From positions 62,001 through 126,000 of the forward strand of contig NZ_AP029028.1 of assembly GCF_037076565.1 (NCBI RefSeq): a stretch of 64,000 bases of DNA, read 5' to 3'. The translations under genes and the position numbers were made by a program. The notes beneath the pieces were generated by a model that saw nothing but the letters and a program-made list of their open reading frames with translations, searched no databases and was not told the origin of the DNA. Below are positions 8,861-33,527 of the stretch, one piece after another. Within the stretch, counting starts at the first letter, position 1; every line of letters begins with the position of its first letter. Source of the DNA: Herbaspirillum sp. DW155 (GTDB lineage Bacteria > Pseudomonadota > Gammaproteobacteria > Burkholderiales > Burkholderiaceae_D).

Positions 8861-10762
8861 ATGAGTTCATCTCACACCAATCCAGGCCTTTCCCTCCGGT
8901 CGAGCAAATTCCACATGATTACCCTGGCGGCGCTGGGCGTGGTGTTTGGCGATATCGGTACCAGCCCGCTGTATGCACTGAAGGAATGTTTCAGCCCCGA
9001 CCATGGCATCGCCTTTTCACACGGCGCGGTGCTGGGCATCATCTCGATGCTGTTCTGGTCGATCTCCATCGTGGTCACCATCAAGTACGTGATGTTCGTG
9101 CTGCGCGCCGACAACAACGGCGAAGGCGGCGTGCTGGCGTTGATGGCGCTGTCGCTGCGCTCGGCCATCTCGGGCTCGCCGCGCGCCAAGCTCTTGATGA
9201 TGCTGGGCGTCTTCGGCGCCTGCATGTTCTACGGCGACGTGGTGATCACGCCGGCCATCTCGGTGCTGTCGGCGGTGGAAGGGCTGGAGATCGCCGCGCC
9301 CACGACGGCGCATGCGGTCATTCCGCTCACGCTGGTGATCGTGGTGATCCTGTTCCTGATCCAGCGGCATGGCACCAGCGTGGTGGGGCGTTTCTTCGGT
9401 CCGGTGATGTTCCTGTGGTTCTTCTCGCTGGCCTTGCTGGGTCTGTACAACATCATCAAGGCACCCCAGGTGCTGGTGGCGATCAATCCGTATTACGCCG
9501 TCCACTTCATGGCCGAGCACTCGCTGCAGGCCTTCATCGTGCTGGGTTCGGTGGTGCTGGTGCTGACCGGGGCCGAGGCGCTGTATGCCGACATGGGCCA
9601 CTTCGGCATCAAGCCGATCCGCTATGCCTGGCTTTTCACGGTGATGCCCTCGCTGCTGATCAACTACTTCGGCCAGGGTGCCAACCTGATCGCCAATCCC
9701 AAGGCGCTGGCCAATCCCTTCTACCTGATGATCCCCGAGCCGCTGGTGTTGCCCATGGTGCTGCTGGCCACCGCAGCCACGGTGATCGCCTCGCAGGCGG
9801 TGATCTCGGGCGCCTTCTCGCTGACCAGCCAGGCCATCCTGCTGGGCTTTGTTCCGCGCATGCGCATCCTGCACACCTCCGAGGACGAGCAGGGCCAGAT
9901 CTACATCCCGCTCATCAACTGGATGCTGCTGGTGCTGGTGGTGGCGGTGGTGCTGGCGTTCAAGAAATCCGACAACCTGGCCGCGGCCTATGGTGTGGCC
10001 GTGACCACCACCATGGTGATCACCACCATGCTGCTGGCGGTGGTGATGCGCCATATCTGGAAGTGGCGCATGCCGGCCGTGGTCGTGGCCACTGCCTGCT
10101 TCATGGCGGTCGACGTGGCCTTCTTCGCGGCCAATCTGTTGAAGCTCACCGAAGGCGGCTGGTTCCCGCTGGTCATCGGCGGCGCCGCGTTCTTCCTGTT
10201 GATGACCTGGTACTCGGGCCGCATGCTGCTGCGCATGCGCATCAAGGATGACGGCATCCCCATCGAGCCCTTCATCGAAGGCCTGCTGGCGCATCCGCCC
10301 CACCGCGTGGGCGGCACCGCCGTCTTCATGACCGGCAATATCGCCACCGTGCCGGTGGCGCTGCTGCACAACCTGAAGCACAACCGCATCCTGCATGAGC
10401 GGGTGTTCTTCCTCAAGATCAGCATCTGGGATGTGCCCTATGTTGCCGACAGCGAGCGCCTGACCATGAAGGACCTGGGTGGCGAGGTCTACCTGCTGCG
10501 CGCGGCCTTCGGCTTTAAGGAAGCGCCGGAAGTGCAGAAGGTCATGACCCTGACCGAGCAGCAGTTCGGCCATCACTTCGACCTGATGGATACGTCCTTC
10601 TTCCTGGCGCGCGACACGGTGGTGCCGAGCAAGCTCTTGGGCATGTCGCTGTGGCGCGAGCGCCTGTTTGCGTGGATGTACCAGAACGGCGCCAAGCCGT
10701 CGGACTTCTTCCACATCCCGGCCAACCGGGTGGTGGAGCTGGGGACCAAGGTCGAGATCTGA
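8861..10762 (+). CDS. kup: KUP-family potassium transporter
   Basis: Low-affinity, proton-coupled K+ importer of the inner membrane. The protein has 633 residues, the normal length for the family (about 620-630). It begins with the diagnostic block [19 protein letters not shown] near residue 23-41, has about twelve membrane helices to roughly residue 440, and ends in a cytosolic C-terminal domain of about 180 residues. AGGGAGC precedes the ATG at good spacing. It is a single-gene unit closed by a strong terminator. Confidence 0.96.
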
Positions 10763-23354: not shown

Positions 23355-23494
23355 GGCAACGGTCCGAAAAGGCGGGAGGCCATCATAACAAAGGCGCTTT
23401 TTTGCCGATATGAAGCAAAATCCGCGATTGTCCGATAGCCGCCAGGCAATTCTTGCAGTATAAGAACGCATCTCAACGGACTACCTCACCCGCT

Positions 23495-25501
23495 ATGAAC
23501 AACCATACCTCCGCCGGCCTGCCGGAACTGACCCTGCGCGGCATGCTGCTGGGTGCGCTCATTACGGTGGTGTTTACCGCCTCCAATGTCTACCTGGGTC
23601 TCAAGGTCGGCCTCACCTTTTCCTCGGCGATTCCCGCCGCCGTCATCTCGATGGCCGTGCTGCGCCTGTTCTCCCATGCCAACATCCTGGAGAACAACAT
23701 GGTGCAGACCCAGGCTTCGGCGGCCGGGACGCTCTCTTCCATCATCTTCATCCTGCCCGGCCTGGTCATGATGGGCCACTGGCAGGGCTTCCCCTTCCTG
23801 CAGACGCTGGGCATCTGCGCCGCCGGCGGCATGCTGGGGGTGATGTTTTCCATCCCGCTGCGCCGGGTGATGGTGGTGCAAAGTGCGCTGCCCTATCCGG
23901 AAGGCGTGGCGGCCGCTGAAATCCTGCGCGTGGGCAGTGCCGACGCCGACGGCGGCGAGGAAACCCGGCGCGGCCTGCGCGACATCCTCTTCGGCGGCAC
24001 TCTGGCAGCAATCTTCAGTGTGGTGTCCAGCGGGCTGAAGCTTTTTGCCGAAAGCATGAGCCTCTGGTTCACTGCCGGTGCCTCGGTGGTGCGCCTGACC
24101 ATGGGCTTTTCGCTGGCGCTGGTGGGGGCGGGCTACATGATCGGCATCGTCTCCGGCATCGCCATCCTGATCGGCCTGGTGATCGCCTGGGGCGTGGCCG
24201 TGCCTTATCTCACCGCCGTCACCCCGCATGCGGCCGATGTCGCTCTGTCGGACTTTGCCAACGGCTTGTGGAAGAGCCAGGTGCGCTTCATCGGTGCCGG
24301 CATGATCGGCGTGGCGGCGGTCTGGACCCTGGCCACGCTCTTCAAGCCCATGCTGGAAGGCGTCAAGGCCTCGCTGTCGACGCTCTCGCGCCGTCAGCAG
24401 GGCAGCACCGAGCGCACCGACCAGGATCTGTCGCCGCGCTGGATCATCGTCATCAGCCTGGCCATGATTGCGCTGCTGGCGGTGGTGTTTGCGTCCTTCC
24501 TTTCGGAGGCACCGGTGTCGCCGGCGCTCTTCATCGGGCTGATCGTCTATGCGGTGGTGTTTGCCTTCGTGTTCGGCTTCCTGGTGGCGGCGGCCTGCGG
24601 CTACATGGCCGGGCTGATCGGTTCTTCCTCCAGCCCGATCTCGGGCATCGGCATCGTGGCCGTGATCCTGGTGTCGGTGCTGCTGCTGGTCTCGGGCGCG
24701 GTCGACCCGCTGCTGGCCACGCCGGAAGGCAGCAAGCTGGCCATCGCGGTGGCGCTGTTCGTGACCGCGGCCATCATTGCGGTCGCGGCCATCGCCAATG
24801 ACAACCTGCAAGACCTCAAGACCGGCCAGCTGGTCGGCGCCACGCCCTGGCGCCAGCAGGTGGCGCTGCTGATCGGTTGCGTGGTGGGTGCGCTCGTCAT
24901 CCCGCCGGTACTGAACCTGCTCTACAACGCCTACGGCTTCACCGGCGCCCTGCCGCGTGCGGGCATGGATGCCGCGCAAGCGCTGGCGGCGCCGCAAGCC
25001 ACGCTGATGACGGCCATCGCCACCGGCATCTTCACCCGTGAGCTGAACTGGACCATGTTGAGCGTGGGCGTGGCGCTGGGCATCGTGCTCATCGTCATCG
25101 ACTGGCTGCTGGCCCGCCGTGGCGGTGTGGCGCGCCTGCCGGTGTTGGCCGTGGGCATCGGCATCTACCTGCCGCCGATGGTCAGCAGCGCCCTGTTCCT
25201 GGGCGCGGTATTGGGCTGGCTGATCGAACGCGGCCTGCGCCGCCGTGCACGGGCGGCCGGGATGGATCTGGACGCCTATGCCGACAAGCCGCGCCAGCGC
25301 GGCATCCTGGTGGCCTCAGGCTTGATCGTTGGCGAGAGCCTGGTGGGCGTGCTGCTGGCCGCCATCATCGGCTTTACCGGCAAGGATGCGCCGCTGGCGG
25401 TGGTGTCGGGCGCGTTTGAATCGACCGGGCAGTGGCTGGGGCTGGCCGCGATGGTGCTGGTGCTGATCGCGTTTGCGCGGCGTATTTTGCCGGCACGCTG
25501 A
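23495..25501 (+). CDS. OPT-family transporter
   Basis: Inner-membrane oligopeptide-transporter-family protein, 668 residues with about 14-16 helices. It opens with LTLRGMLLGALITVVFTASNVYLGLKVGLTF, the characteristic bacterial OPT start. ATG 23495 lacks a good Shine-Dalgarno, and a TTG at 23453 is a weaker alternative. Bacterial OPT members are proposed to move oligopeptides or metal chelates; the substrate here is unknown. It converges on the lipid-type operon, with only 30 bp between the stop codons. Confidence 0.9.
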   Translation: MNNHTSAGLPELTLRGMLLGALITVVFTASNVYLGLKVGLTFSSAIPAAVISMAVLRLFSHANILENNMVQTQASAAGTLSSIIFILPGLVMMGHWQGFPFLQTLGICAAGGMLGVMFSIPLRRVMVVQSALPYPEGVAAAEILRVGSADADGGEETRRGLRDILFGGTLAAIFSVVSSGLKLFAESMSLWFTAGASVVRLTMGFSLALVGAGYMIGIVSGIAILIGLVIAWGVAVPYLTAVTPHAADVALSDFANGLWKSQVRFIGAGMIGVAAVWTLATLFKPMLEGVKASLSTLSRRQQGSTERTDQDLSPRWIIVISLAMIALLAVVFASFLSEAPVSPALFIGLIVYAVVFAFVFGFLVAAACGYMAGLIGSSSSPISGIGIVAVILVSVLLLVSGAVDPLLATPEGSKLAIAVALFVTAAIIAVAAIANDNLQDLKTGQLVGATPWRQQVALLIGCVVGALVIPPVLNLLYNAYGFTGALPRAGMDAAQALAAPQATLMTAIATGIFTRELNWTMLSVGVALGIVLIVIDWLLARRGGVARLPVLAVGIGIYLPPMVSSALFLGAVLGWLIERGLRRRARAAGMDLDAYADKPRQRGILVASGLIVGESLVGVLLAAIIGFTGKDAPLAVVSGAFESTGQWLGLAAMVLVLIAFARRILPAR

Positions 25502-25531
25502 CGGTAGCGAGAATGCGCTGCTGGTGGTGGT

Positions 25532-26473
25532 TCAGTGCACCCACCAGTAGCGCAGGATATGAAAGAAAATCGGTGCCGAGAAACTGATCGAATCGACCCG
25601 GTCCAGCATGCCGCCATGGCCTTCGATCATGGCACCCCAGTCCTTGAGTCCGCGATCACGCTTGATCGCCGACAGCACGAATCCCCCGAAGAAGCCCAGG
25701 ATATTGATGGTCAGCGCCACCAGCGCCGCCTGCCAGACATTGAAGGGTGTGATCCAGTACAGCGCAGCACCGACGGCGGTAGAGGTCAGCACGCCCCCGA
25801 CCAGGCCTTCCAGCGTCTTGGAGGGGGAAATCTGCGGCGCCAGCTTGCGCTTGCCGAACAGCTTACCCCACACATACTGGAACACATCGCTGGATTGCAC
25901 CGTCAGCACCAGGAACACGATCAGCTGCAGGTTGCGTCCTTCGAAGCCCTCGATGGGCAGCGTCAGCAGCGCCGGCACGTGCGAGATGCAGTAGACGCAG
26001 ATCATCAGCCCCCACTGCACCTTGGCCGCCCGCTCCAGGAAGTGCTTGGTATCGGTGGAGAGCGAGGCCGAGATCGGCAGCAGCAGGAAGGCGTAGACCG
26101 GAATCAGGATGGAGAACAGCCCATACCAGTCCATCCCGATCAGTACGTACTGCAGCGGCAGGAACACGAAGAAGCACCACAGCAGCGCCCGATGGTCGCC
26201 CACGCGGGTGTAGGTGACGGAAATGAATTCACGCAGCGCCTGGAGCGAGATGAAGGCAAACAGCACGACCACACCGGTCTTGCCGATCCAGAACGCGATG
26301 GCCAGCGCGCCGATCATCCACCACCAGGCCTTGATGCGGGCATTGAGATTGTCGATGACGCTGCTGCTGCGTCCGGCCAGCCGCCAGCGCAGCAGGCCGC
26401 CGACCGAACTGGCCAGGGCAAGGACGGCGAACACGCCGCCAAACAGGGCGAGGAGGGTATCTTGGGGAGTCAT
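25532..26473 (-). CDS. CdsA-family cytidylyltransferase, YnbB-like
   Basis: Predicted to make a CDP-activated lipid from CTP and phosphatidate or a similar phospho-lipid. The protein has 313 residues and about eight membrane helices. The CdsA signature is complete at 268-294 (SAIKRDRG, KDWG, GHGGMLDRVD). SSDVFQYVWGK (194-204) and SPSKTLEG (216-223) also match. It is the last gene of a six-gene operon containing a CDP-alcohol phosphotransferase, which would use its product. ATG 26473 is preceded only by weak signals. A general housekeeping CdsA is expected elsewhere in the genome, so this is probably a dedicated copy. Confidence 0.9.
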   Translation of the reverse strand: MTPQDTLLALFGGVFAVLALASSVGGLLRWRLAGRSSSVIDNLNARIKAWWWMIGALAIAFWIGKTGVVVLFAFISLQALREFISVTYTRVGDHRALLWCFFVFLPLQYVLIGMDWYGLFSILIPVYAFLLLPISASLSTDTKHFLERAAKVQWGLMICVYCISHVPALLTLPIEGFEGRNLQLIVFLVLTVQSSDVFQYVWGKLFGKRKLAPQISPSKTLEGLVGGVLTSTAVGAALYWITPFNVWQAALVALTINILGFFGGFVLSAIKRDRGLKDWGAMIEGHGGMLDRVDSISFSAPIFFHILRYWWVH

Positions 26474-26489
26474 GGTCGTTCGTTGCAGA

Positions 26490-27110
26490 TCATTCGGCCA
26501 CGGGGGCCAGGGCGAGCAGCGCCTGGCGGGTGCGGGCCAGGAACTGTTCCTTGCTTTCATCGGGGCGCAGCATCAGGGGCTCGCCGAAGCTGAGGGTGCA
26601 TAGCAGCGGCAGCGGTACCAGATGGCCCTTGGGCATGGCACGGCCGAGGTTCTCGATCCACACCGGCACCAGTTCCACTTCCGGATGAGCGCAGGCCAGG
26701 TGATACAGGCCGCTCTTGAAGGGCAGCAGGCCCTCTTCCAGGTTGCGCGTGCCTTCCGGGAACAGAATCAGCGACTCGCCACCCGCCAGCACCTGGCCCA
26801 TCACGCCAATGGGATCGGCGCTGCGGCCGGCCTGGCGATCCACCAGCACGCCACGGAACACCCGGTTGATCACATAACGCCGCACCGCACTCCTGAGCCA
26901 GTAGTCCGATCCGGCCACCGGCCGGGTGCGCTTGCGCATGGCGCGCGGCAGCATGCTCCAGACCAGCACGAAATCACCGTGGCTGCGGTGGTTGGGATAG
27001 TAGACGCGCAACTTGCCGGGGTCGGGCGCGGCGAACCAGCGGGCGCGCACGCCCGTGAGGACGCGGGCGAAGGTGCAAATGGCGGAGGCGAAGAGGCGGT
27101 CGATCAGCAT
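26490..27110 (-). CDS. PlsC-type 1-acylglycerol-phosphate acyltransferase
   Basis: Acyltransferase of 206 residues, predicted to acylate a lysophospholipid. The catalytic motif NHRSHGD (40-46) matches NHx4D and the glycerophosphate motif is FPEGTRN (117-123). One N-terminal hydrophobic stretch probably anchors it to the inner membrane. It sits between the unknown membrane protein and the CdsA-like gene, with short junctions. Together they give acylation followed by CDP activation. E. coli ynbABCD, as I recall it, has no such gene, so this is an extension of that operon type. Confidence 0.9.
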   Translation of the reverse strand: MLIDRLFASAICTFARVLTGVRARWFAAPDPGKLRVYYPNHRSHGDFVLVWSMLPRAMRKRTRPVAGSDYWLRSAVRRYVINRVFRGVLVDRQAGRSADPIGVMGQVLAGGESLILFPEGTRNLEEGLLPFKSGLYHLACAHPEVELVPVWIENLGRAMPKGHLVPLPLLCTLSFGEPLMLRPDESKEQFLARTRQALLALAPVAE

Positions 27111-27130
27111 ACAAATTCAGTCTTCAAGGG

Positions 27131-27658
27131 TCAGGAAATGAACATGAACACGAAACCCCCAATCCAGGCCCCGACCTGCAACGCGAGGCATCGGCACTGG
27201 TTGCGCAACAGCCGGCGCGCACCGGCAGTGCGCTCGGCAATTCCGCGTGTCGGCTCAGGTTGACGACCCAAGCCGCTTTCCTTGATGGCCAGGTCGAAGG
27301 CGGCCAGATCGTCCTGGTGTGCAATACCCTGCTGCCAGCGGCGCGCCCAAGAGGCGAAGAGGGGCGCATCGAAGGCGCAGCGTAGCGCGAAACCGCATTC
27401 GAGGATGCCAAATGCGATGGACATCGTCAGGGGTATCCAGAGGCCGGATGTGTTCACCTGCAAGACCAGCAGGACCAGAGCGGCGATGGTGAGCAGTCGG
27501 CTGAAGCAATCCACTGGACGGCTCAGACCCAACAGCGCTGCGGCGATCTCGGCCTGATGCGCCGCCTTCAGAGCGGCTTGCCGGGCGTCAGGCGACAGGT
27601 CTTGATGGGCGGGGTCATTGGCGGCATCGTCCCCGGAACCCGGGCGCAGGTCAGACAT
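27131..27658 (-). CDS. Unknown membrane protein of the ynb-like operon
   Basis: A 175-residue protein I do not recognise. It has an acidic, Asp/Ala-rich cytosolic N-terminus of about 50 residues. Hydrophobic helices lie at about 55-70 and 72-93, with a weak C-terminal one at 158-174 (GAWIGGFVFMFIS). Between them are a short amphipathic region and a basic stretch. The start overlaps the stop of the PAP2/phosphatase gene by 8 bp, so it is a genuine operon member. Cys residues at 51, 88, 94, 154 and 156 show no clear metal motif. A role in docking the soluble-faced enzymes is speculation. Confidence 0.75.
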   Translation of the reverse strand: MSDLRPGSGDDAANDPAHQDLSPDARQAALKAAHQAEIAAALLGLSRPVDCFSRLLTIAALVLLVLQVNTSGLWIPLTMSIAFGILECGFALRCAFDAPLFASWARRWQQGIAHQDDLAAFDLAIKESGLGRQPEPTRGIAERTAGARRLLRNQCRCLALQVGAWIGGFVFMFIS

Positions 27659-29009
27659 GGCGTTCCCCCTTCAGCAGGCGCAGCTCGACCTCCCGCAGGC
27701 GTTCCTGCAGCGCCGCGTTGATCACCACCGAGGGGCGGCGTTCGGCCAGCAGGGCGAGAGCAGAGGCCATGTCGGCACAGCGTCCGCTCAGGCAGAGCCA
27801 GGTCGCCACTGCAGCGGCGCTGCGCGAATAGCCCAGCGCACAGGCCACCAGCACCGGTCCGTGGCGGCGCAGCGATTCGATGCTGCGCGCGGCTGCCAGC
27901 AATTGGTCGGCGTCGGGTGCGACCAGGTCCAGCCAGGCATGGCCGGCATAGGCCCAAGGACCGCGCGGAGCGGGCAATTCGGCGCAGAGATCGCACAGGG
28001 CGGCGAACGGGCCGGCGCGCATGTGGGCAGCGCCGGGCAAGCGGCCCAGCCAGACATCGGCTGTGATGGCATCAGGCTGCGGACGGCGGCGGGTCCACAG
28101 GCGCGCATTGATCCACGCGCCCAATGCGTGCGGGGCCAGCAGCCAGGCGGCGGCCAGCGAGCGGCGGCCGTGGCGTTTCTGGAAACCGGCGGCACCGGCA
28201 TGGGCGTAATTCCACGCCACGACGGCCAGTGACAAGGCCAGCCAGCCCAGCGGTGCGGCCAGGGCGCGCACGGCCACTGCCAGAGCCAGTGCCAGCATGG
28301 CCGCCAGCGCGTAGGCCAGCGCCAGACGCGTGCGGCGCGCACTGCGCTGGCCGCTGCGACAGAGCGGGCTGCGTCCCTCATCCGGCCACAGCCACAGGCA
28401 GAACAGGCCCAGCATGGCACCGGTCGGGATATCGATGAAGTGATGCTGCCAGGTCGTCAGCACGGACAGGCCGATCAGCAGCGCCCAGCTGTGGATCACC
28501 AGCTGCCAGAACCAGTGGGTGCGCAGCCGGACGAACTGGACCCAGATCAGCACCAACAGCGCGATATGCAGCGAAGGGGCCTGGTTGAAGGGCAGGTCGA
28601 AGGCCGCCAGTGAGGCAAAGAGCGCTCCAAACAGCCCGTCGGTCGCCGGCCGCACGAAGGCAAAGCGCAGCGGAAAGGCCAAAAAGCAGGCCACCGCGAT
28701 CAGCTGCGCCGTCAGCAGCCGCAGGGCATGGCGATCAGTCTCGCGTGGGGTGCGGCAGCACAGGAAGGAAAACCCGTAGAGCAGGTCGATGGACCAATAG
28801 GGCAGGATGGTCCAGGGCAGGAAGGGGAGATGGCGTTCCCAGCCATAGAAGAAGCTGGGCACGCTGGCGCGCGCGGCCGCCGCGTGGTTGGCGAAGCCAT
28901 AGCTGAGGAAGAACAGCGGCCCCAGCAACAGCAGCCACGCCACGCCGCGTTTCCAGGGCAGCGTCGTGGCCGGTGCTGCCGCGGGCAGCAGGCGGTCGGC
29001 CTGGCTCAT
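27651..29009 (-). CDS. PAP2 / dual-specificity phosphatase fusion, YnbD-like
   Basis: A fused protein of 452 residues. The N-terminal part (about 20-210) is a PAP2-type membrane phosphatase with PSLH (145-148) and the HxxxD pair in HHFID (189-193), like the PAP2_3/inositol-phosphoceramide-synthase branch. Two or three more helices follow (about 225-270). The C-terminal part is a dual-specificity phosphatase with the CX5R site Cys390-Arg396 (CALGYSR). The same fusion is found in E. coli YnbD, as I recall. It could dephosphorylate a phosphatidylglycerophosphate- or phosphoinositide-like intermediate. Start 29009 overlaps the YnbC-like stop (ATGA). Confidence 0.9.
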   Translation of the reverse strand: MSQADRLLPAAAPATTLPWKRGVAWLLLLGPLFFLSYGFANHAAAARASVPSFFYGWERHLPFLPWTILPYWSIDLLYGFSFLCCRTPRETDRHALRLLTAQLIAVACFLAFPLRFAFVRPATDGLFGALFASLAAFDLPFNQAPSLHIALLVLIWVQFVRLRTHWFWQLVIHSWALLIGLSVLTTWQHHFIDIPTGAMLGLFCLWLWPDEGRSPLCRSGQRSARRTRLALAYALAAMLALALAVAVRALAAPLGWLALSLAVVAWNYAHAGAAGFQKRHGRRSLAAAWLLAPHALGAWINARLWTRRRPQPDAITADVWLGRLPGAAHMRAGPFAALCDLCAELPAPRGPWAYAGHAWLDLVAPDADQLLAAARSIESLRRHGPVLVACALGYSRSAAAVATWLCLSGRCADMASALALLAERRPSVVINAALQERLREVELRLLKGERHV

Positions 29010-30757
29010 GCAGCCTTGCGCCGGGCCAGGGAGACGGTAAAGATGCCCCACTGGTCGATGCGCTGTTCTATCTTTTCGAACCCGGCCTCAGCCACCAGCT
29101 GGTCCATCTCGGCTTGCGTGCGGCGGCGCATGACCCAGGCCTGGCCGCCGCGATGGCTGGTGAGGGCGCGTGCGATCAGTTCCAGCTGCGGATGCCAGGG
29201 CTGGCCGGTATAGACCAGATAGCCGCCCGGCGCGATGGCATCGGCCAGGCCGGCCAGGGAGGTGGTCACGGCCTCATTGTCCGGGAACAGTTCATAGAGG
29301 CCGGAGACGATGCCCACCGTCGGGCGCGGCGTGACGGCGGCCAGGCTGGCGCGGTCGAAGGCGTCGCCCTGCACGAAGCGGGCGATGTCGGTCAGGCCCT
29401 TCTCGGCGATCAGCGCCGTCCCTTGCTGCACGTTCAGTTCGCTGTAGTCGCGCAGCAGGATGGAGTCGGGACGCGGTCCCGGGCCCAGCGCTTCCAGCAC
29501 GTAGCGGCCATGGCCGGCGGCGATGTCGAGTACGTGCAGCGGCTGTCCGTCGGCCTGCAGGCGCGCCAGCGCCGTGCGCAGCAATTCCTCCACGTGCAGC
29601 TTGCGCTGGCGGATGCCTTTCCAGCCGATCGCCTCCAGATACTGGCGATCGATGGCGCGGCCCAGCGGACCGACGCCTTCGGGTGTGTTGCGGTAGACGT
29701 AGTCGAGCGTGCTGCCCGAATCAAAACCGGTGCGATGGCCCAGCGCCACGCCCTTGGAGAGCAGGCCGCCCAGCTTCATGTTGGCGCGGTACCCGGCCCA
29801 GTACAGACCCTTGGAGCTGAGGGCGGGCAGCGCTGCGGAGAGCCGGCGCGACTCCTCGAAGGTCGGACCCTGGCGGTGCGACTGGCGCAGGTCCGGACGG
29901 GCCCAGGGTTGGGAGAACTGGCGCAGGATGAATTCACGCGCAAGATCGGTGGCGATCTTGCGATCCTTCTCGCCGAAGGTGTCGTGGTAGAAGCCCGGGA
30001 GGACGTGCTTTTCCTTCACCGTTGTGCCCAGGCGTGCGAAGAAATCGTGCTGGGGGCCATGGTGCACCACCCAGTCCGCGCCCGAAATGAGCAATTGCGT
30101 GGGAATGGTGATGGCCTGGGCATCGGCGACCACGCGTTCAGCCGCTTCATACAGCGCCAGCAAAATGTTCACGGAGATCGGGCGGCTGATCAGCGGATCG
30201 CTGTCGTAGGAGACCTGGCGCTGCCGGTCGTGGGTCAGATACTTCGCTTTTACGTAGCTGTTGACGAAGAAATTGCCACGCAGCTTCTGCTGCAGGGCCA
30301 GTCCCGGACGCGCGAAAGGAACATAAAGCTTCACCTTGAAGGCGGGCGAAGCCAGTACCAGGCAGCGCACGCGGGGCGCGTAGTCATGCGCCCAGGTCGA
30401 GACCAGCACCGCGCCCACACTCTGAGCCAGCACGGCCATGTCTTCCTCGGCCACCTGCCACTGGTCGCGCAGGTGGTGTATGAAGGTTTGTATGTCCCGC
30501 ACCGAGTGCGCAAAACTGGGGGAATAGCCGCGCGGGCCTGGCGAACGGCCATGACCGCGCGCATCCCAGGCATAGAAATCGAAATCGGAGAGGCCCAGTT
30601 CATCGACCAGGTGCGCCATGCGCCCGCCGTGTTCGTGGCCGCGATGGAACATGACGACTGCGCCGCGCCGCTGCCCGCCGGTGGCCGGCCAGCGGCGATA
30701 GAACAGGGATTGGCCGTCGTGGGTGGTGAACTGGTGTTCCTGGCAGGATCGAGTCAT
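29006..30757 (-). CDS. Alpha/beta hydrolase / SAM-methyltransferase fusion, YnbC-like
   Basis: A bifunctional protein of 583 residues. The N-terminal alpha/beta hydrolase (about 1-285) has the monoacylglycerol-lipase-like oxyanion block FHRGHEHGGR, nucleophile Ser113 in AQSVGA, Asp228 in SGADWV and His258 in GFYHD. The C-terminal class I methyltransferase (about 365-583) has SAM motif VLDIAAGHG (409-417). The nucleophile elbow has Ala in place of the first Gly of GxSxG. The layout equals E. coli YnbC. Start 30757 overlaps the CDP-alcohol phosphotransferase stop (ATGA). It might deacylate and methylate a lipid headgroup; no substrate is known to me. Confidence 0.9.
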   Translation of the reverse strand: MTRSCQEHQFTTHDGQSLFYRRWPATGGQRRGAVVMFHRGHEHGGRMAHLVDELGLSDFDFYAWDARGHGRSPGPRGYSPSFAHSVRDIQTFIHHLRDQWQVAEEDMAVLAQSVGAVLVSTWAHDYAPRVRCLVLASPAFKVKLYVPFARPGLALQQKLRGNFFVNSYVKAKYLTHDRQRQVSYDSDPLISRPISVNILLALYEAAERVVADAQAITIPTQLLISGADWVVHHGPQHDFFARLGTTVKEKHVLPGFYHDTFGEKDRKIATDLAREFILRQFSQPWARPDLRQSHRQGPTFEESRRLSAALPALSSKGLYWAGYRANMKLGGLLSKGVALGHRTGFDSGSTLDYVYRNTPEGVGPLGRAIDRQYLEAIGWKGIRQRKLHVEELLRTALARLQADGQPLHVLDIAAGHGRYVLEALGPGPRPDSILLRDYSELNVQQGTALIAEKGLTDIARFVQGDAFDRASLAAVTPRPTVGIVSGLYELFPDNEAVTTSLAGLADAIAPGGYLVYTGQPWHPQLELIARALTSHRGGQAWVMRRRTQAEMDQLVAEAGFEKIEQRIDQWGIFTVSLARRKAA

Positions 30758-31368
30758 GGGTGGGAGGCGGCGCGCAGGCCGCTGCGGATGCGGTTGACGA
30801 TATTGAGGAGGATGGCGGCAACAGCCACCGGCAGCGCCCAGAAGATCCAGGCCGGGAGGTTGCCGGCCAGTCCCAGCCACAGGCCCAGCGCGCCGAACAG
30901 GAAGGCGCGGTCGCTCTTGCCCATGGGGCCGTCGTACTGGCGCGGTGCACCGACCATGGGGCCGAGCGCCCCGGTCATCTCCGACACCGCAGACAGGAAG
31001 ATCACCCCGCCCACGCTGGCCCAGCCGAACGGGGCCACCAGTGCAAAGGGCAGGTACAGCGCCGCATCGGAGATGACGTCGGTCAACTCGTTGAGATAGG
31101 CCCCCAGCGCCGACTGCTGGCCGAATTCACGCGCCAGCATGCCATCGACGGCATTGAAGGCCATGCGCAGGAACATCCACAGCGGCAGCAGCAGGAACAG
31201 CGCCGGCCGCTGCGGCCCGGCCACGAACAGCAGCACGCCCAGTGCCAGCGAGACCAGCATGGCCAGCACGGTCACCGCATTGGCCGTCACGCCGGCCTGG
31301 GCCAGGGCGCGCACCATGGGTCGCAAAAGCGCCTGGAAGCGGGGTTTGAGTTGATAGATGCTGATCAT
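30754..31368 (-). CDS. CDP-alcohol phosphotransferase with Asn-substituted motif, YnbA-like
   Basis: Predicted to transfer a phosphatidyl group from a CDP-lipid to an alcohol. It has 204 residues and about five or six helices. The family motif is recognisable at 72-101 (NAVDGMLAR, then G89), but two of the usual metal-binding Asp positions are Asn: Asn72 and Asn93, leaving Asp75, Asp97 and an extra Asp101. E. coli YnbA has, as I recall, the same Asn pattern (NALDGMLAR and LNE), which supports orthology. It is the first gene of the operon. Its own Shine-Dalgarno is poor, and a 14-codon leader frame overlaps its start. Confidence 0.9.
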   Translation of the reverse strand: MISIYQLKPRFQALLRPMVRALAQAGVTANAVTVLAMLVSLALGVLLFVAGPQRPALFLLLPLWMFLRMAFNAVDGMLAREFGQQSALGAYLNELTDVISDAALYLPFALVAPFGWASVGGVIFLSAVSEMTGALGPMVGAPRQYDGPMGKSDRAFLFGALGLWLGLAGNLPAWIFWALPVAVAAILLNIVNRIRSGLRAASHP

Positions 31369-31409
31369 GCGGCGCCTGCCGCACGGTCGTCGGGGAGGGG
31401 AGAGGGCAT
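31365..31409 (-). CDS. Possible 14-codon leader ORF coupled to the YnbA-like gene
   Basis: On the minus strand an AAGGA about nine bases upstream precedes an ATG that opens a 14-codon frame (MPSPLPDDRAAGAA). Its stop overlaps the next start as ATGA. Because the YnbA-like gene has no good ribosome site of its own, this tiny frame may provide translational coupling. Coding status is unproven. Confidence 0.35.
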   Translation of the reverse strand: MPSPLPDDRAAGAA

Positions 31410-31684
31410 GGGGGATCGTCCTTGTTGTCGATTCTGAGTTGTTATTTGTTGTGTCGGGCGAAGCTCACCTTTGGCAAAGCAATGGCGTCTTTTGTTCCCC
31501 CCCTGATGCGAGCAGAAATGGAATTCAACGGAAAGAGGAGGGAGTTCTCGTAGCCATTCAAGGCACGCATTGATTGAATGTCATCGCTTTTGGCAAGGTT
31601 GCAGCGGGCAGGCGAGGCAGAAGACGATGCAGCGATGTGGCCCCGGTGAGCGGATCGTTGCGTCAGATTGCATATCGCTGCCGC
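31410..31684. other. Upstream region of the ynb-like operon
   Basis: About 275 bp between the comM stop and the operon leader, lower in GC than its surroundings. The operon promoter should be here, but I find no convincing -35/-10 pair, dyad or terminator on either strand. Confidence 0.4.
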
Positions 31685-33208
31685 TCAATTCCCGGTCAGC
31701 ATCCGCCGGTATTGCACTGCCTCGGCCACGTGCGCGTGCGTGATCACGCTGGACCCGGCCAGGTCGGCAATCGTGCGCGCCAGCTTCAGTACCCGGTGAT
31801 AGGCCCGCGCCGACCAGTTCAGCCGCAATATGGCGGCTTGAAGCAGTTGGGCGGCGGCTGCGTCGTGCCGGCAGATCCGGTCGATTTCGCTGCCGCTGAG
31901 CTGGCTGTTGGGTTTGCCCTGGCGCTGCAATTGCCGTTCAAAGGCATGCGCGACGCGCTGTGCCATGACGGCGCTGGCTTCCCCCGGCTGCTGGGCCGCC
32001 AGTTCGGCCGGACTCAGGGCCGCCACCTGCAATTGCATGTCGATGCGGTCCAGCAGCGGCCCCGACAGGCGGGCCTGGTAGCGTTTGACGACCTCCGGCG
32101 TGCAGCGGCAGCGCCCCGCCGCATCTCCAAAGAGCCCGCACGGGCAAGGATTCATCGCCGCGACCAGCTGGAAGCGGGCCGGAAACTGCGCCTGCCTGGC
32201 CGCCCGCGAGATGACGATGTGTCCCGACTCCATCGGCTGGCGCAGCACGTCGAGCACGCTGCGGGGATACTCTGCGATCTCGTCCAGGAACAGGACGCCA
32301 TGATGGGCCAGCGAAATCTCGCCCGGCCGCGGCGGGCTGCCGCCGCCGACCAGCGCCACTGCGGATGCCGTGTGATGCGGGGCGCGGTACGGGCGCTGCT
32401 GCCAGCGGTTGATGTCGAAACGGCCGGTCAGCGACTGCACGGCAGCCGATTCCAGCGCCTGCTCCTGCGTCATCGGCGGCAGGATGCCGGGAAAGCGCGT
32501 GGCCAGCATGGACTTGCCTGCTCCGGGCGGGCCGACCAGCAAGATGCTGTGATTGCCGGCCGCCGCCACCTCCATGGCACGCCGCGCCTGCAATTGTCCC
32601 TTGATGTCGCTGAAATCCGGATACGCCGGCGTGCCGGTGGCCCTCCGCGCCTGGTGTCGTTGCAGCCGCGCTGCCGGATCGCGCGTGCTGAAGTGATTGC
32701 AGACCTCCAGCAGCGAGGTCGCCGGCAGGATGTGGGCCTGCGGCAGCAGCGCCGCTTCGTCGGCATTGGCGGCCGGCAGGATGAAGCTGCGCGGGTGGCC
32801 ATCCTGTTGATGCTGGCGCTGCATCGCGCAGGTCATCGCCAGCGCGCCGCGAATCGGCAGCAGTTGGCCCGACAGCGACAGTTCGCCGGCATATTCATGA
32901 TCGTCCAGGCGGTCGCCCGGGATCTGCTCGGAAGCCGCCAGGATGCCCAAGGCGATGGCCAGGTCAAAGCGCCCGGATTCCTTGGGCAGGTCGGCCGGGG
33001 CCAAGTTGACGGTAATGCGGCGGGCAGGGAATTCAAACCGGGCATTCTGCAGTGCCGCCCGGACGCGATCACGGGCTTCCTTCACCTCGGCTTCGGGGAG
33101 CCCGACGATGGTGAAAGCCGGCAAGCCATTGGCCAGATGCACCTCGACCGTCACCGGCGGGGCGCTCATGCCCGCCAGGGCGCGGCTGCGCAAGACCGCC
33201 AGGCTCAT
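31685..33208 (-). CDS. comM: Mg-chelatase-like AAA ATPase ComM (YifB)
   Basis: Hexameric helicase-type ATPase that promotes branch migration during natural transformation and recombination. The 507-residue protein has an N-terminal Lon-S5-like domain (about 1-185), Walker A GPPGAGKS (226-233), Walker B in VLFLDEIAEY and a C-terminal Mg-chelatase module with a Cys cluster (CPCGLFGDAAGRCRC). Start 33208 gives the standard N-terminus MSLAVLRSRALAGM; residues further upstream are not conserved-looking. It follows ubiK in the same direction, a common betaproteobacterial pairing. Confidence 0.93.
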   Translation of the reverse strand: MSLAVLRSRALAGMSAPPVTVEVHLANGLPAFTIVGLPEAEVKEARDRVRAALQNARFEFPARRITVNLAPADLPKESGRFDLAIALGILAASEQIPGDRLDDHEYAGELSLSGQLLPIRGALAMTCAMQRQHQQDGHPRSFILPAANADEAALLPQAHILPATSLLEVCNHFSTRDPAARLQRHQARRATGTPAYPDFSDIKGQLQARRAMEVAAAGNHSILLVGPPGAGKSMLATRFPGILPPMTQEQALESAAVQSLTGRFDINRWQQRPYRAPHHTASAVALVGGGSPPRPGEISLAHHGVLFLDEIAEYPRSVLDVLRQPMESGHIVISRAARQAQFPARFQLVAAMNPCPCGLFGDAAGRCRCTPEVVKRYQARLSGPLLDRIDMQLQVAALSPAELAAQQPGEASAVMAQRVAHAFERQLQRQGKPNSQLSGSEIDRICRHDAAAAQLLQAAILRLNWSARAYHRVLKLARTIADLAGSSVITHAHVAEAVQYRRMLTGN

Positions 33209-33281
33209 CGCAATGCGCCTGGCAGCTTGGCAGAACAGAGAAGGGAAGGGGGAGGGAAAGAGAAAAGTGTCTTGGTCAGGA

Positions 33282-33527
33282 TCATGGAGTCTGTTTTTGC
33301 TGAGCCTCAAGCTCGGCAACACGCGCTTCCAGCGCCTCCAGGCGGGCTCGGGTCTTGGCCAGGACCTGGGCCTGGACGTCGAATTCCTCGCGCGTCACCA
33401 GGTCCAGCTTGGCAAAACCTTGACTCAGCATGGCCTTGACGTTCTTCTCGATGTCCTTGGCCGGAGAGTTCTCGATTGCCTTGTTGATCTTGGATTGCAG
33501 GTCTTCAAAAAATGGGGACTTGTCCAT
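33282..33527 (-). CDS. ubiK: Ubiquinone biosynthesis accessory factor UbiK
   Basis: Small accessory protein (formerly BMFP/DUF526) that assists aerobic ubiquinone assembly with UbiJ and the Ubi complex. It has 81 residues with an amphipathic N-terminal helix (FFEDLQSKINKAIENSPAKDIEKNVK) and a C-terminal coiled coil (LAKTRARLEALEARVAELEAQQK), the family layout. GGAG lies just upstream. It is divergent from torF across a 424-bp region. Confidence 0.92.
   Translation of the reverse strand: MDKSPFFEDLQSKINKAIENSPAKDIEKNVKAMLSQGFAKLDLVTREEFDVQAQVLAKTRARLEALEARVAELEAQQKQTP

Follow-up and report, generated by a model that had tools for sequence, protein, structure and literature searches.

A six-gene ynb-type operon of Herbaspirillum sp. 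DW155, collinear with arc1 of Pseudomonas, and the asparagine-type active site of its CDP-alcohol phosphotransferase

Gene content of the operon and its relation to ynbABCD and arc1

The window analysed in this work, a stretch of 64,000 nucleotides from the genome of Herbaspirillum sp. DW155, carries at positions 25532-31368 of the minus strand an operon of six intact open reading frames (ORFs), which we designate g1 to g6 in the order of transcription. Adjacent genes overlap by 4, 4 and 8 bp (g1/g2, g2/g3 and g3/g4, respectively) or are separated by 20 and 16 bp (g4/g5 and g5/g6). A preliminary description made from the sequence alone had noted this packing and had ascribed domains to the genes, and both points hold, since all the ORFs are intact and Pfam and NCBIfam agree on the domains. 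The genes are as follows:

30754..31368, minus strand: g1, CDP-alcohol phosphotransferase of the YnbA/PA2541 type, 204 amino acids (PF01066, 32 bits)
29006..30757, minus strand: g2, fusion of an alpha/beta-hydrolase (monoacylglycerol-lipase-like) and Methyltransf_20, YnbC type, 583 amino acids (PF12146, 235 bits; PF12147, 510 bits)
27651..29009, minus strand: g3, membrane PAP2-like protein with a C-terminal dual-specificity phosphatase, YnbD type, 452 amino acids (DSPc, 35.0 bits; cut-off 33.5)
27131..27658, minus strand: g4, small helical membrane protein, 175 amino acids (no Pfam family)
26490..27110, minus strand: g5, PlsC-type acyltransferase, 206 amino acids (PF01553, 61 bits)
25532..26473, minus strand: g6, CdsA-type CTP:phosphatidate cytidylyltransferase of the YnbB/PA2536 type, 313 amino acids (PF01148, 225 bits; cut-off 24)

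The proposed likeness to products of the ynb locus of Escherichia coli was confirmed, g1, g6, g2 and g3 being 47%, 41%, 59% and 39% identical to YnbA, YnbB, YnbC and YnbD, respectively. The four ynb families are adjacent on one strand in E. coli, and all four are present in the window operon, whereas the gene order differs, being g1-g6-g2-g3 (A-B-C-D) in E. coli and A-C-D-g4-g5-B in the window. No match to g4 or g5 was detected in the 12-kb stretch with the E. coli locus.

Gene content and order identify the operon as a collinear homologue, of ynb type, of the Pseudomonas genes PA2541-PA2536. These genes were named arc1 (antagonism resistance cluster 1) in 2022, as one of three such clusters found in transposon screens under attack by the type VI secretion system (T6SS) of Burkholderia thailandensis (PMC8926400). 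Survival of P. aeruginosa under T6SS attack requires arc1, which is controlled by Gac/Rsm; its authors describe five of the six genes as lipid-related and four of the products as similar to enzymes of phosphatidylglycerol synthesis (PMC8926400), and g4 of the window matches no family. To locate the arc1 counterpart, we searched for the published deletion primers for PA2541 and PA2536 in a sample of 398 genomes drawn from the family of a named Pseudomonas locus. An exact primer match was obtained in one of the 398, Pseudomonas G508 (region L125). The PA2541 start primer had given no match with up to 4 mismatches in the relative loci first examined, and the PA2536 start segment none in either of the two Pseudomonas genomes first tried. 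The primer segments map in L125 to the start and the end of g1 and of g6; seven of the eight could be placed, of which five are perfect matches and two differ at a single position, whereas one segment was not found with up to 2 mismatches. L125 and the window have six genes each, in identical order and orientation, and the encoded proteins are 61.5% (g1), 68.9% (g2), 54% (g3), 33% (g4, over 121 amino acids), 57% (g5) and 66% (g6) identical. Because the operon is a collinear relative of arc1, a six-gene cluster with a published defence phenotype (PMC8926400), it was wrong to call it undescribed. Another candidate counterpart, Arc3, was rejected, since it is a separate locus (PA5114-13) for lysophospholipid defence that is phospholipase-specific (PMC8926400). 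A library of anti-phage defence systems rendered only a weak match, at the level of the methyltransferase (mad2, 21.9 bits).

Co-occurrence of the six families and the active site of g1

Named genomes were scanned with a g2 profile, and the best 80 of 515 relatives were evaluated; these are therefore the closest ones, 43 of the 80 being from Pseudomonas. All six families are present in 74 of these 80 loci, a recurrence that sets the operon far from chance and bears out the co-occurrence expected for it. In 72 of the 74 complete loci, the six genes share strand and order; this number includes L039, which was counted by domain positions (the script count without it was 71). The six remaining loci reach a contig end (L032, L044, L050 and L087), lack g3 and g4 (L054) or lack g5 (L070). 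Some peculiarities were observed in this set. In L026, from an Azoarcus metagenome-assembled genome and counted among the 74, g3 is represented at 9832-10327 by two short pieces only and is apparently much shortened; in L097, from Shinella, g1 lies on the strand opposite to g2-g6; and in seven Pseudomonas loci (L065, L066, L079, L081, L086, L096 and L099) a second PlsC-like stretch (163-167 bits) precedes g1 at a distance of about 0.3-1 kb.

A second sample consisted of an even draw of 321 genomes of the class, that of strain DW155 included, in which matches were considered strong at or above 299 bits for g2, 143 bits for g1 and 311 bits for g6, limits that were set after seeing the gaps in the scores. 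Strong g2 (PF12147) was found in 9 of the 321 genomes, that of DW155 among them, leaving out two weaker matches above the cut-off (in a third genome the match was below it); strong g1 was found in 18, in one case as a fragment, and was separated by a wide gap from the next score; and strong YnbB-type g6 was found in 22. These sets are nested, the 9 g2 genomes lying within the 18 g1 genomes and these within the 22 g6 genomes, with hypergeometric probabilities of 5e-13 for g2 within g1 and 6e-26 for g1 within g6, values that ignore phylogeny and include the DW155 genome. The other four g6 genomes (G061, G075, G267 and G378) bear a remote CDP-alcohol phosphotransferase beside g6 and g5. The two genes g1 and g6 were observed on one stretch in 20 of the 22 genomes and on separate contigs in G092 and G363. 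Among the nine g1 genomes without PF12147, eight have a contiguous g1-g6-g5 triad, and G092 has g1 alone on a short contig. In the triads (L159, L160 and L162-L167, from other genomes of the class), an Asn-type g1, a YnbB-type g6 and a PlsC-type g5, three genes that the window operon has as well, are adjacent; unlike the window, the stretches fetched contain no methyltransferase-hydrolase, no PAP2-dual-specificity phosphatase and no g4. The core of the system is thus the pair g1 and g6, usually with g5, and the arc1 and ynb forms supplement it with g2, g3 and g4.

CDP-alcohol phosphotransferases share the motif D..DG..AR x8 G...D...D, which is present in both other members of this family encoded in the DW155 genome, a PgsA-like and a PssA-like protein. 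Since these two are canonical, g1 is an extra enzyme. In g1 the first and the third Asp of the motif, both expected to bind metal, are replaced by Asn (N72 and N93 in the window). A total of 97 g1 proteins with at least 80% coverage of the model were compared, many of them from related Pseudomonas and thus, like the window protein included among them, not independent. All 97, that of E. coli included, read N..DG..A[RK]x8G...N[ED]..D...D, in which the second Asn is directly followed by an acidic residue, and all 97 carry a GP.GKSDRA motif; the canonical Asp motif was found in none. Both Asn are also present in the g1 of L050, which covers less than 80% of the model and is outside the 97, as well as in nine complete g1 copies of further genomes, whereas the g1 fragment of G117, cut by a contig end, shows the second Asn only. 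The four remote enzymes beside the YnbB-type g6 of G061, G075, G267 and G378 have the same two Asn, so that all 22 genomes with strong g6 carry an Asn-type CDP-alcohol phosphotransferase. The remote CDP-alcohol phosphotransferases of the loci L169, L170, L171 and L206 form a family (54-58 bits against the g1 model) that is found beside YnbB-type g6 and PlsC-type g5, with the same two Asn and an acidic residue after the second. The next g6 scores below the limit are 264 bits (G167) and 244 bits (G062); the neighbour of the G062 gene is a canonical, Asp-type enzyme, and no CDP-alcohol phosphotransferase motif was found in G167, where the g6 relative lies beside a g5-like gene. In the genomes examined, the Asn substitution thus goes together with a partner of YnbB type.

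Synthases of phosphatidylinositol phosphate and archaetidylinositol phosphate are the best curated matches of g1 and are also among its best sequence matches in the PDB. However, g1 lies far under their cut-offs, with 64 bits (64-81 in the family; cut-off 180) for the archaetidylinositol-phosphate synthase model NF040950 and 49 bits (cut-off 170) for the phosphatidylinositol-phosphate synthase model NF045883, and two Asp of their metal site are Asn in g1. The score with the PgsA model TIGR00560 is 20.4 bits (cut-off 109).

The other enzymes, the leader and the genomic site

The g6 and g5 proteins conserve the motifs of their families: the CDP-diacylglycerol synthase signature KR..KD..GHGG..DR.D is found in 95 of 96 g6 proteins, and HX4D and FPEGT[RK] are each found in 88 of 89 g5 relatives. 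The score of g6 with the housekeeping CdsA equivalog PRK11624 is 97 bits, against a cut-off of 385. In the PDB, the N-terminal half of g2 comes closest to monoglyceride lipases, and among 100 g2 proteins the motifs for Ser, Asp, His and S-adenosylmethionine are conserved in 97, 90, 96 and 98, respectively. The lipase-like half of g2, together with a weak match to lysophospholipase L2 (32.9 bits; cut-off 362), would fit a role of the operon in membrane repair, in which g2 would act as a lysophospholipase or transacylase, g5 would re-acylate the lysolipids produced by phospholipase toxins and the CDP steps would recycle the backbone. That arc1 is a defence locus and that one of its genes exceeded the threshold in a screen with the phospholipase Tle3 (PMC8926400) are in line with such a role. 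According to the same source, nevertheless, none of the single-toxin mutations tested, those in Tle1 and Tle3 included, relieves the defect caused by loss of Arc1, and the phospholipase-specific locus is Arc3 (PMC8926400). As triads without an adjacent g2 also exist, we regard membrane repair as improbable.

The window g3 scores 23.1 bits with PAP2, under the Pfam cut-off of 27.2, and among 14 members of its family that were scanned, the window protein included, PF01569 was matched in 13 and PF14378 (PAP2_3) in 12 at E<=0.01. PSGH is the C2 motif of PAP2 proteins. This part of g3 reads PSLH in 91 of 91 sequences and PSGH in none, and the third PAP2 motif, QHH..D, is present in all 91, with many relatives reading TTYQHH. 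With its NQ.PSLH it resembles PAP2_3 more than it does the classical PAP2 phosphatases, and may, judging from these motifs, transfer phosphate groups rather than hydrolyse them. The CX5R loop of the dual-specificity phosphatase is conserved in 90 of 91 sequences, while the usual His before the Cys is found in only 4. A predicted model of g3 (predicted local distance difference test score, pLDDT, of 85.6) superposes on dual-specificity phosphatases, which fill its list of PDB matches, so that the comparison barely tests the PAP2 part. For g4, no Pfam or NCBIfam family was found at E<=0.01; its model is all-helical (pLDDT 82.6) and has no PDB match at E<=0.001, the best rows being unrelated helical proteins. 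In two congeners, L012 (6533-8491) and L015 (6151-8067), g3 and g4 form one continuous reading frame, which suggests that g4 assists g3.

Upstream of g1 we recognised the following feature by reading the sequence:

31365..31425, minus strand: leader with ACAAGGA, similar to a Shine-Dalgarno sequence, at 31425-31419 and an upstream ORF of 14 codons starting at 31409

The stop codon of the 14-codon ORF overlaps the start of g1 (ATGA), and the window carries ACAAGGACG ahead of this ORF. In the congeners L012, L014, L015 and L016 the leader arrangement is kept and most of the peptide varies, which suggests translational coupling to g1. In the Pseudomonas loci, ACAAGGA is found near the g1 start in 22 of 43, and the corresponding count for every other gene is 0-1 in 42-43, a pattern that fits the published Rsm control. 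RsmA/CsrA control was also considered for the window, ACAAGGACG resembling an RsmA site, and was rejected, because no match to CsrA/RsmA (PF02599) was detected in the DW155 genome by a search that was positive in the controls E. coli, Bacillus subtilis and Thermotoga maritima; for the same reason ACAAGGACG is here probably just a ribosome-binding site. Control by Gac/Rsm is an associated and not a defining feature of arc1, and arc clusters have been reported also beyond the organisms with Gac/Rsm (PMC8926400). A promoter scan of positions 25300-31800 rendered no sigma-70-like site.

The operon is flanked by an ORF on the plus strand (23453-25501) that we take to encode an OPT-type transporter and by one on the minus strand (31685-33322) that is presumably comM. 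The g2 family is present in 6 of 34 genomes of the genus, that of DW155 included, and the five congeners that have it each hold all six genes. A survey of comM rendered 30 loci in the genus (three more genomes matched without giving a locus, and one had no match). OPT is beside comM, without the operon, in 10 of them (eight with gaps of about 20-180 bp and two with gaps of nearly 800 bp); g1 is beside comM in 5, including the window; and neither g1 nor OPT is found within the short flank in 15. In G003, comM lies on another contig than the operon. These findings make the operon an accessory cassette, observed at one fixed site wherever both sides are visible.

The product of the pathway and its possible role

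We consider the operon to encode a dedicated side branch of phospholipid synthesis, the product of which is predicted to change the membrane and so aid survival of the toxins of rivals, a reading to which we assign a probability of roughly two in three; confidence in any named head group is low. Judging from the chemistry of the families, g5 would acylate lysophosphatidic acid, g6 would activate the resulting phosphatidic acid with cytidine triphosphate (CTP), and the Asn-substituted g1 would join the CDP-activated lipid to a polyol or sugar phosphate, with both glycerol-3-phosphate and inositol-phosphate being improbable acceptors. The remaining phosphate would be removed by g3, with g4 helping it in the membrane, and g2 would edit the acyl chain and methylate the product. 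The role in defence is extended to Herbaspirillum by analogy with Pseudomonas arc1 and is to be taken as presumptive.

It can also be the case that the operon constitutes a second, inducible route to phosphatidylglycerol, with g5 acting as PlsC, g6 as CdsA, g1 as a PgsA-like enzyme and g3 as a phosphatidylglycerophosphate (PGP) phosphatase, which would be near the homologies described for arc1 by Ting et al. The evidence from E. coli is against it: YnbB, even when overproduced, does not complement cdsA (data not shown in that work; PMC6362211), and YnbD does not complement a PGP-phosphatase mutant (Table 2 of PMC7413402). The failure of YnbB and YnbD to replace CdsA and the PGP phosphatases argues for a product separate from ordinary phosphatidylglycerol. 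Moreover, g1 scores higher with the inositol-phosphate families than with pgsA and lacks two of the canonical Asp, and one of the canonical CDP-alcohol phosphotransferases already encoded in the DW155 genome bears the PgsA-like motif. We therefore find such a second route unlikely.

With regard to the acceptor, phosphatidylinositol was rejected as a general product, since no inositol-1-phosphate synthase (Inos-1-P_synth) was found either in the DW155 genome or in that of E. coli, which bears the operon and served as control; an inositol acceptor is thus unlikely. The acceptor would be another phosphorylated compound, perhaps a sugar phosphate. A particular form of this idea is that g1 and g6 make a diacylglycerol-pyrophosphate-sugar anchor comparable to MPIase, a glycolipid of E. 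coli, in which a sugar-1-phosphate would attack CDP-diacylglycerol and the Asn residues would accommodate the extra phosphate. Overproduction of YnbB raises MPIase (PMC6362211), an effect that is compatible with a sugar-phosphate acceptor without demonstrating one. The presence of an Asn-type CDP-alcohol phosphotransferase in every class genome with strong YnbB-type g6 and the resemblance of g1 to enzymes that take the phosphate of a cyclic polyol as acceptor point in the same direction. On the other hand, MPIase is made mainly by CdsA and the effect of deleting ynbB is marginal, YnbB being auxiliary in a step that the authors assign to CdsA/YnbB (PMC6362211), and the likeness of the window operon to that pathway concerns one gene only, the g6 that is 41% identical to YnbB. 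The anchor would also leave the phosphatases and the methyltransferase unexplained, and the literature passages surveyed contain no test of YnbA. We judge this anchor to be somewhat less plausible still than a second phosphatidylglycerol route.

Several observations weigh against a dedicated phospholipid branch with a role in defence. The defence phenotype comes from another genus, the survival of the rival also increases modestly after loss of arc1 (PMC8926400), and RsmA control, which is part of the biology of arc1 in Pseudomonas, cannot apply in the DW155 genome as far as could be found. The complementation failures of YnbB and YnbD, as negative results, could reflect expression or localisation, and in the openly licensed literature, as far as the entries listed go, there is no identified lipid product of ynb or arc1 beyond the link between YnbB and MPIase. 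With respect to gene content, g4 and g5 are missing in E. coli as well as in several relatives, and some relatives have no g3, so that the full scheme is not universal and the preliminary description of the pathway as apparently complete is unproven; dephosphorylation and methylation are not obligatory, because some g1-g6-g5 triads have no adjacent g2 and g3. Finally, outside the two samples, L019 has g2-g6 without an adjacent g1, the same genome having g1 in L020, and L021 consists of g2 alone. These three loci are the settings, each different, of the three PF12147 copies of G041.

A further-reaching proposal, which we put forward as tentative and rather doubtful, is that g1/YnbA defines a branch of non-canonical CDP-alcohol phosphotransferases, marked by Asn in place of two metal-binding Asp and by an acid retained beside the second, that works only with a dedicated CDP-diacylglycerol synthase of YnbB type and makes an undescribed class of phospholipids, probably with a sugar- or polyol-phosphate head, and that the arc1 form dephosphorylates and methylates this product, which would protect the inner membrane from the toxins of rivals.

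The arc1 cluster was already known. The conservation of the complete gene set in 74 of the 80 named loci, the change to Asn in the active site of g1, the co-occurrence of g1 and g6 and the accessory cassette by comM are added here, and they narrow the question to a pair of enzymes, an Asn-type CDP-alcohol phosphotransferase and a YnbB-type CdsA. The mechanism by which arc1 protects P. aeruginosa is probably lipid-based. If it is true that this pair makes a new lipid, this would explain the action of arc1 and would add a class of head groups to those of bacterial membranes.

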